Part shown: positions 713-59,357 of the stretch, piece by piece
Position numbering within the stretch: position 1 is the first letter of the stretch
Layout: every line of letters starts with the position of its first letter
From: Planctomycetota bacterium
GTDB lineage: Bacteria; Planctomycetota; Phycisphaerae; Phycisphaerales; UBA1924
Reading direction: 5' to 3'
Assembly (NCBI GenBank): GCA_014584315.1
Contig: JACTNA010000009.1
Coordinates: forward strand, 62,001 to 126,000
Length of the DNA stretch: 64,000 nt
Position numbers and translations under genes: made by a program
Notes under the pieces: model-generated
Databases searched by the model: none
The model's input: only the letters and a program-made list of their open reading frames with translations
What the model was told of the DNA's origin: nothing

Positions 713-740
713 GAACGCGAAGTTCGCGAGGTTCGCGAAG
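713..740. repeat. Triplet of 9-bp GCGAA repeats
   Basis: Three consecutive 9-base units, gaacgcgaa, gttcgcgag and gttcgcgaa, lie between the MoxR start and the octamer array. Triplets of the same design occur at 33068-33095 and 49714-49740, each on the same side of an octamer array. Confidence 0.75.
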
Positions 741-7402: not shown

Positions 7403-7490
7403 CGATCCCTCTCCCCTCGCTCCCCTCGATCCCTCGATCCCTCGATCCCTTGATCCCTTGATCCCTCGACCCCTTGATCCCTCGACCCCT
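7403..7490. repeat. Degenerate octamer array (cgatccct/tgatccct) before accC
   Basis: From 7427 to 7490 there are eight uninterrupted 8-base units alternating cgatccct, tgatccct and cgacccct, preceded by more degenerate copies from 7403. The array fills the accB-accC spacer and ends nine bases before the accC ATG. Unlike the other arrays in the window it is 5' of a gene and not at a stop codon. Confidence 0.93.
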
Positions 7491-7498
7491 CACCCACC

Positions 7499-33526: not shown

Positions 33527-33530
33527 CTGC

Positions 33531-33569
33531 TCCGTCACTCCATCACTCCATCACCCCGTCACCCCGTCA
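33531..33569. repeat. Octamer array at the purC stop codon
   Basis: On the minus strand the units read TGACGGGG, TGACGGGG, TGATGGAG, TGATGGAG, TGACGGAG. The second TGA is the purC stop codon (33559-33561), so the first unit is still coding. The unit is a variant of those at 767 and 49784. Confidence 0.85.
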
Positions 33570-49713: not shown

Positions 49714-49740
49714 GAACGCGAAGAGTGCGAAGAGTGCGAA
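49714..49740. repeat. Triplet of 9-bp GCGAA repeats
   Basis: gaacgcgaa, gagtgcgaa and gagtgcgaa in tandem, 43 bases from the octamer array. The spacing between units is exactly nine bases in all three such sites of the window. Confidence 0.75.
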
Positions 49741-49783
49741 GGCATCAGAGCAAGCAGCGAACTCAAGTATAACCTATCACAGC

Positions 49784-49850
49784 CACTCCGTCACTCCGTC
49801 ACTCCGTCACTCCGTCACTCCGTCACTCCGTCACTCCGTCACTCCGTCAC
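49784..49850. repeat. Octamer tandem array at the rhomboid stop codon, cactccgt x 8
   Basis: Eight perfect units of cactccgt (TGACGGAG on the minus strand) followed by cac. The TGA at 49847-49849 is the stop codon of the rhomboid gene and the array extends from it downstream. Confidence 0.97.
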
Positions 49851-54437: not shown

Positions 54438-54510
54438 TGGAGCGGATGGGAGTCGAACCCACGACCTCATCATTGCGAACGATGCGCTCTACCAACTGAG
54501 CTACCGCCCC
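54438..54510 (-). tRNA. tRNA-Ala (anticodon CGC)
   Basis: 73 nt on the minus strand. The acceptor stem is GGGGCGG with CCGCTCC, giving the G3-U70 pair that marks alanine tRNAs. D-arm AGCTCAGTTGGTAGAGC, anticodon loop TTCGCAA (anticodon CGC, reading GCG) and T-arm GGGTTCGACTCCC are normal. CCA is not encoded. The 3' end borders the lower-GC island. Confidence 0.97.
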
Positions 54511-58209: not shown

Positions 58210-59244
58210 ATGCCCGCCGCAGGCTCGCCCCCCGACGCCTCGCTCCGCGACTGCGTCACCATCGACGACATCCGCGCCGCCGCCGCACGCCTGCACGGCG
58301 TCGCCCACCGCACGCCCGTCATGTCGTCGCGTTCCATCGATTTCATGACCGGCGCGCTCACCCGCTTCAAGTGCGAGAACCTCCAGCGCGTCGGCGCGTT
58401 CAAGTTCCGCGGGGCCTACAACGCCATCGCCGCCCTCAGCGACGACGCCCGCCACGCAGGCGTCCTCGCCTACTCCAGCGGCAACCACGCCCAGGCCGTC
58501 GCCCTCGCCGCCTCGCTCCTCGGCACGCCCGCCGTCATCGTCATGCCCGCCGACGCCCCGCGCGTCAAACTCACCGCCACGCGCGCCTACCTCGAACGCG
58601 CGCCCGCCGGCAGCGAGGTCGTCCTCTACGACCCGGCCGCCACCGTGCGCGAGGAACTCGCCGCTCGCCTCGCCGACGAACGCGCTCTGACCATCGTCCC
58701 CCCATACGACCACCCGGACGTCATCGCCGGACAGGGCACCGCGGGCCTCGAACTCTGCGAGGACGCAGGACCGATCGATGTGCTCCTCGCCCCATGCGGC
58801 GGCGGCGGGCTGCTCTCGGGATGCGCCGTCGCCACGCGCGCCCTCTGCCGCACCTGCCGCATCATCGGCGTCGAGCCGGATCTCGCCGACGACGCCACCC
58901 GCAGTTTCCGCGACGGCGTCCTCCGAACCGTCCGCAACCCCCCGACCATCGCCGACGGCGCGCGCACGCCCTACCTCGGCCGCCACACCTTCGCCCTCAT
59001 CACGCGCCACGCCGACGACATGATGACCGTGAGCGAGGCCGAGATCGCCCGCGCCGCGCTGCTCGCCATGGAACGCCTCAAACTCGTCGTAGAACCGACC
59101 GGCGCGCTCGCCCTCGCGGGCCTGCTCCGCCTCGCCCGCGAGCAGCCCGACGAGATCGCCGGCCGAACCGTCGGCGTTATCATCAGCGGCGGCAACCTCG
59201 ACCTCTCGACGATCCCCGAGTTGATCCGCCTCGCGGAGGCATGA
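58210..59244 (+). CDS. Threonine/serine dehydratase-like PLP enzyme
   Basis: A 344-residue fold-type II PLP enzyme. GAFKFRGAYNAIAAL carries the PLP-binding Lys65, SSGNHAQAVALAASL the Asn/His phosphate region, PCGGGGLLSGCA the glycine loop and ISGGNLDLSTI the end of the active site. It lacks the regulatory ACT-like domain of biosynthetic IlvA, so it resembles catabolic threonine dehydratase, threo-3-hydroxyaspartate ammonia-lyase or serine racemase; these cannot be separated by eye. The frame upstream of 58210 runs through the terminator, so the ATG at 58210 is the likely start. The stop codon starts a heptamer array. Confidence 0.9.
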   Translation: MPAAGSPPDASLRDCVTIDDIRAAAARLHGVAHRTPVMSSRSIDFMTGALTRFKCENLQRVGAFKFRGAYNAIAALSDDARHAGVLAYSSGNHAQAVALAASLLGTPAVIVMPADAPRVKLTATRAYLERAPAGSEVVLYDPAATVREELAARLADERALTIVPPYDHPDVIAGQGTAGLELCEDAGPIDVLLAPCGGGGLLSGCAVATRALCRTCRIIGVEPDLADDATRSFRDGVLRTVRNPPTIADGARTPYLGRHTFALITRHADDMMTVSEAEIARAALLAMERLKLVVEPTGALALAGLLRLAREQPDEIAGRTVGVIISGGNLDLSTIPELIRLAEA

Positions 59245-59276
59245 GGCTTGGGGCTTGAGGCTTGAGGCTTGGGGCT
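59242..59276 (+). repeat. Heptamer array tgaggct x 5 starting at the stop codon
   Basis: tgaggct, tggggct, tgaggct, tgaggct, tggggct. The first three bases are the stop codon of the dehydratase gene (59242-59244). Inverted relative to the array at 59309. Confidence 0.92.
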
Positions 59277-59308
59277 CCGTGTGGCGCACGCAAACACACG
59301 ATGCCCCG

Positions 59309-59357
59309 CGCCTCAGGACTCAAGTCTCAAGCCTCAAGCCCCAACCCTCAAGCCTCA
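59309..59357 (-). repeat. Heptamer array TGAGGCT x 7 at the stop codon of the convergent gene
   Basis: On the minus strand, TGAGGCT, TGAGGGT, TGGGGCT, TGAGGCT, TGAGACT, TGAGTCC, TGAGGCG. The TGA at 59348-59350, in the second unit, is the stop codon of the membrane-protein gene. With 59242-59276 it forms an inverted repeat around a 32-base loop. Confidence 0.9.

Follow-up and report, generated by a model that had tools for sequence, protein, structure and literature searches.

Why should short tandem arrays begin at the stop codons of five genes? The question is raised by the window, that is, the whole stretch of 64,000 nucleotides analyzed here (C20:62001-126000 of G000, a planctomycete genome of 3.33-Mb whose nearest named purC relatives are Phycisphaeraceae). 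An earlier note on this DNA held that in five genes an array of 7- or 8-bp units contains the TGA stop; all five arrays were found again, and their stops were checked. As argued below, we lean towards the view that arrays at stops are mostly the ORF-less arms of intergenic insertions resembling the intervening sequences (IVS) of 23S rRNA, later altered by slippage.

Arrays at stop codons

The VWA-domain gene carries at its 3' end an array of TGACGAAG x12.5 with 100% identical units (767-866 in plus-strand coordinates, minus strand), and its stop (852-854) lies inside the array, preceded by 12 array bases. The purC stop (33559-33561) is covered by the five units of a TGACGGGG/TGATGGAG/TGACGGAG x5 array (33530-33569, minus strand), one of them upstream of the stop. 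The array at the rhomboid gene, TGACGGAG x8.4 (49784-49850, minus strand), starts at the stop (49847-49849), and a single array base precedes it. The remaining two are heptamer arrays that form an inverted pair at 59236-59357, a form that is seen directly: the left arm, GAGGCTT x5.9 (59236-59276, plus strand), covers the stop of a PLP-dependent dehydratase gene (59242-59244, six array bases upstream), and the right arm, TTGAGGC x6.9 (59310-59357, minus strand), covers that of a convergent membrane-protein gene (59348-59350, seven array bases upstream). The genes match the Pfam families VWA, SAICAR_synt (purC), Rhomboid and PALP (dehydratase); a Pfam scan of the membrane protein gave no match. 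The statement that arrays extend downstream only is thus nearly right, yet 1-12 array bases enter the coding sequence, and a sequence check bore out that TGA recurs in all three frames of the arrays.

Further features were noted beside these arrays and elsewhere. Farther downstream of the VWA gene lies a short nonamer array, CTTCGCGAA (716..740, minus strand), and another (GCGAAGAGT on the plus strand; 49718..49741, minus strand) stands between the rhomboid array and the gene that follows; they are possible partners of the VWA array (on the pyrimidine side) and of the rhomboid array, with pairing that is not significant in either case. An array of the same class as those at stops, AGGGATCG x11 (CGATCCCT on the plus strand; 7403..7491, minus strand), sits on the start side of its gene, 7 bp before the start of a biotin-carboxylase gene, and the CGATCCCT unit also occurs 6 bp ahead of another gene (L064:2971-3045). 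At 49760-49790 (minus strand), TATACT follows a GTGACG of the rhomboid array by ~17 bp; a sister species has TATGCT, and the spacing is identical in three species, such that units of the rhomboid array could act as -35 boxes (TGAC) for the downstream PRA isomerase gene. The sole Rfam match within the window is a tRNA gene at 54438-54510 (minus strand).

Is this placement beyond chance? We sampled the window and 40 stretches of 20 kb picked regardless of repeats (864 kb in all, 26% of the genome) and slid each array within its own intergenic gap, with "near" defined as overlapping a stop or no more than 10 bp from one. Intergenic 7/8-bp arrays were near stops in 14 of 23 cases against 6.1 expected (P=5e-5), and without the window in 9 of 17 against 4.55 (P=0.008). 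Two related genomes gave 8/23 (3.7 expected) and 11/23 (4.9 expected), or 19/46 against 8.6 when pooled (P=5e-5). The earlier judgment that the placement is far from chance therefore holds in this genome sample and in both relatives. In the 864 kb, none of the 23 arrays lies between divergent genes, though divergent gaps make up 33% of intergenic bases; starts are not enriched (4/23 arrays at most 10 bp from a start, against 3.4 expected), and arrays of longer period show no stop-proximity effect. Could the pattern still come from chance, or from an artifact of gene calling or assembly? The window was chosen for showing it, and gene ends are the predictions of a self-trained codon-usage caller (46 genes called in the window). 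However, the pattern recurs outside the window and in the two other genomes, and conserved orthologues fix the stop positions; we regard chance or artifact as extremely improbable.

The units themselves belong to a few types, which turn up again beside genes unrelated to one another and also outside this genus. Most units at stops vary on one octamer pattern, YRRCRRAG (TGACGAAG, TGACGGAG, TGGCAGAG and CAGCAGAG), on a TTGRGGC heptamer or on AGCGAAC; arrays of AGAGCAGC, GCGAACA, CAAAGGGC and AGAGAAGC are also found at stops. Several of these units hold no stop triplet at all, and arrays follow TAA and TAG stops too. Selection for TGA-containing repeats, which the earlier note had offered as one explanation, is thus not supported, because units need not contain TGA and because non-TGA units and arrays at TAA/TAG stops show the same placement. 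Nor is there a conserved "TGACGRAG stop context," a candidate that we rejected since single copies of TGACGRAG are not enriched at stops.

There is also a rule of orientation. In 22 of the 23 arrays of this genome, and in 20/23 in G013, the purine-rich strand reads away from the closest gene edge, on a background of gene flanks with next to no purine bias (0.51/0.49 in this genome). On this rule, the arm behind a stop is a 5' arm and the arm ahead of a start a 3' arm. As a universal law the rule was rejected, given that only 9/23 arrays obey it in G028. G-quadruplexes were likewise rejected as the cause of the geometry: many units lack G runs, and TGACGAAG lacks even GG, so quadruplexes cannot explain it.

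Change in place and inverted partners

How do arrays behave at one and the same stop? Compared between sister species of the same genus, unit number differs: the rhomboid stop has 8 units here and ~2 and ~2.5 in two sister species, and the VWA stop has 12.5 units here and 2 and ~4 in two sister species. The proteins change as well. The VWA C terminus reads KQRAREGM(K/E)EEEK* in the sister species and KQREVTK* here; the frame has changed, the first TGA of the array is passed, and the next TGA unit ends the reading. Repeats do, then, catch lost reading frames, as the VWA gene shows; selection for such catching is unsupported. The last codons of the dehydratase and of the convergent membrane protein belong to the array and change with the unit, giving AEA*/SPEA* here and AES*/SPES* in a sister species. 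The purC gene ends in CTGACGCGGTAG or reads through in sister species, and in another genus it ends in CTGACGGGGTGA with no array. Taken together, the joint change of copy number and C termini indicates that arrays grow, shrink and homogenize across the stop.

At the DUF58 gene, an array pair can be compared with its absence. The gene end QIKRSKYG* is conserved, and in two sister species the next gene follows ~10 bp on; in this genome, ~125 bp after the stop consist of four AGCGAAC units, a loop and four inverted TTTCGCT units. TGAG stands at both ends of this insertion, which could be chance, and neither a clear target-site duplication nor a transposition enzyme turned up. These data bear on the proposal that arrays arise by expansion seeded at the stop. 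As a later step it fits well, given the unit counts at the rhomboid and VWA stops and the array-free purC end. It is not the whole story: unit families recur at unrelated genes and genera, the ~125-bp inverted-array insertion arrived at once, and elsewhere arrays bracket a gene of the S23 type.

Inverted partners are present for 7 of the 23 arrays in the 864 kb, and in other genera TGACGRAG arrays are commonly inverted pairs with long hairpins (TGACGRAG pairs at L373, L370, L375, L220 and other G013/G019 loci, all from other genera of the family, have stems of up to ~60 bp). In the window, the pair at 59236/59310 folds better than shuffled sequence (z=-8 for the 59244-59347 gap). No inverted partner reached significance for the VWA, rhomboid or purC array, and folding of the VWA gap (z=+1.2) and of the rhomboid gap (z=+0.6) was no better than that of shuffled sequence. 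Folding therefore rejects an intrinsic terminator hairpin for the single arrays; only the 59244-59347 gap has a stable one.

S23/IVP genes between inverted arms

What, if anything, do the inverted arms carry? At the site between pdhA and pdhC, empty and filled states are seen directly: neither G001 nor G015 has an insert there, and in four genomes, this one included, a small gene for the S23 or 23S-rRNA intervening-sequence protein (an IVP gene, PF05635) lies between inverted arms. Two of the four genes were confirmed as PF05635 by Pfam, and the other two match their profile. Arm units are CAGCAGAG here, AGCGAAA in a sister species and GCCAGATGGCAAAT-like in two other genera. That arms pair better within a genome (-31 to -52 kcal/mol) than across genomes, and that the IVP proteins are 43-54% identical though pdhA is 96% identical between sister species, points, on sequence comparison, to separate arrivals or replacements at this site. 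Relatives of the IVP profile have been solved (PDB 2RLD, 2GSC). Like S23, the Avd proteins of diversity-generating retroelements are four-helix-bundle pentamers.

Does the association hold beyond planctomycetes? We fetched 21 plasmid IVP loci of 24 matching records, spanning Cyanobacteriota, Bacteroidota, Chloroflexota, Bacillota and Spirochaetota, and scored inverted repeats in 200 bp on each side. As controls we took 292 genes encoding 80-200 aa, drawn from three samples of planctomycete DNA, and 11 neighboring genes. Strong inverted arms flank 16 of the 21 plasmid IVP genes, a set biased to Nostocales that includes the near-duplicates L497/L505 and L502/L506, and 1 of the 292 control genes (Fisher 1e-21); the neighbors of the plasmid loci gave 0/11. 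Nearly all plasmid arms are heptamer arrays, and most of these have a unit not shared with the others; the long inverted repeat at L496 is non-heptameric. At L488, L493, L494, L500 and L501 the upstream stop (TAA, TAG or TGA) lies inside the array, which is the earlier note's observation in other phyla.

Besides the 21 plasmid loci examined, an IVP gene lies between arms at L106, L436, L439, L440, L358/L398 and L481. A random sample of G028 held two further IVP genes with arms starting at the upstream stop; at L481:8441 (G028) the arm score is barely above that of shuffles. No S23 ORF was found within the window, and for other small genes flanked by arrays several Pfam queries gave no common family. 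A literature search for S23 genes together with heptamers returned nothing relevant. Two observations stand apart. Another common small gene adjoining such arrays is PDDEXK_3 (GxxExxY-type), as at L093:2270-2803, where an octamer array covers the stop of the gene and a 14-mer array follows farther on. Some plasmid IVP genes (L487, L498, L499, L497 and L505) lie within phage-defence operons, flanked on the two sides by cas2 and cas1, by hsdS and hsdR, or by drmD and pglX or MmeI.

In the mechanism we favor, the full form of the element would be a 7/8-mer array, an S23/IVP gene (PF05635) and an inverted array, and reduced forms would retain a short loop or one arm only. Insertion would take place downstream of a gene's stop and ahead of the following gene, such that the first arm abuts the upstream stop, often replacing the gene's last bases and supplying its stop. 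Arms would then gain and lose units and homogenize in place, the gene's last codons included. By analogy with the intervening sequences of 23S rRNA, transcribed arms of paired elements may form a hairpin that is cut by RNase III. We infer that such elements also gave rise to the single arrays of the VWA, rhomboid and purC genes; inverted-array elements would also be mobile, and their arms may undergo RNA processing. Against this reading, S23 genes are missing from most arrays in this genome (the 864 kb hold 23 arrays and a single IVP gene, L106), and purC has a plausible local seed in the CTGACGGGGTGA end of another genus. The order of events could also be the reverse, with IVP genes entering pre-existing hairpins rather than bringing the arms.

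Could plain slippage do the same without any element? A direct repeat spanning the stop (TGAN5TGA) would expand downstream, where coding constraint ends. The array-free purC end is what such a seed would look like, the unit series at the rhomboid and VWA stops are what its expansion would produce, and exact lag-7 or lag-8 runs peak at stops (13 of 384 stops of genes with a downstream gap, 0 in coding controls). However, the same unit families turn up across genes and genera far more widely than random seeds would give, the units found at stops frequently lack TGA, and slippage fails to predict the absence from divergent gaps, the orientation rule, the inverted pairs and the bracketing of IVP genes. 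We hold slippage without an element to be possible but doubtful, and we are similarly hesitant about local seeding alone as the origin of the VWA, rhomboid and purC arrays. Alternatively, are the arrays functional 3' elements, acting as transcription terminators or as backup stop codons that selection maintains? Their position after stops and absence from divergent gaps, TGA in all frames and the way the next unit caught the changed VWA frame would fit, and the pair at 59236-59357 could be a bidirectional hairpin. Yet the VWA and rhomboid arrays do not fold, many units hold no stop, and presence at the same gene differs between sister species; a functional role as the explanation is improbable.

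Known repeats and intervening sequences compared

The stop-hugging geometry is already published for the GGGNATC heptamers that Rehm et al. (2015; PMC4692102) described in Xanthomonas and Nostoc. In the passages of that paper drawn on here, GGGNATC and GGGGAYT are intergenic 7-mers that lie on the coding strand, <=50 bp downstream of ORFs with stop overlap included, are rare between divergent ORFs, occur singly or as inverted pairs, and vary in copy number among relatives. The arrays described here share this geometry (sense at stops, antisense at starts, rare in divergent gaps). They differ in comprising many unit families, mostly octamers, with TGACGAAG lacking GG and thus not itself a unit of the G-quadruplex type, and in their association with S23 genes, a link not found in those same passages. 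The TAACTGA heptamers of Beggiatoaceae, cyanobacteria and Bacteroidetes likewise put stops in all frames, and 13 sets extend over the upstream gene's stop (MacGregor 2015, PMC4679880); those repeats lie mostly just upstream of starts, whereas stops dominate here and units vary.

Why does this matter? Heptamer repeats have been described in bacteria time and again, with neither their origin nor their function explained, and the widespread S23 "four helix bundle" genes likewise lack a known role; the tight link between repeats and S23 genes seen on plasmids offers both a testable shared explanation, and it accounts for repeats hugging stop codons. Such insertions rewrite the C termini of ordinary proteins and provide new stops. 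We speculate, tentatively, that STRR, GGGNATC, TAACTGA and similar 7/8-bp repeats represent for the most part the arms, or the solo remnants, of a single S23/IVP-based class of insertions at gene boundaries, both arms being tandem repeats re-made to match. If true, this would be a type of mobile element so far unrecognized.

The intervening sequence in the 23S rRNA of Coxiella has an S23 ORF, 28-bp terminal inverted repeats and excision by RNase III, and at its 5' arm two or three GACAGAT heptamers, in a number that differs between strains (PMC4990558). Such sequences occupy helix 9, 25 or 45 of 23S rRNA, whereas the arrays studied here are intergenic (no 23S rRNA was found within the window). 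Our elements stand between protein genes, their arms are tandem 7/8-mer arrays, and most copies here have no ORF; like the 23S sequences, the IVP loci have an S23/PF05635 ORF between inverted repeats.
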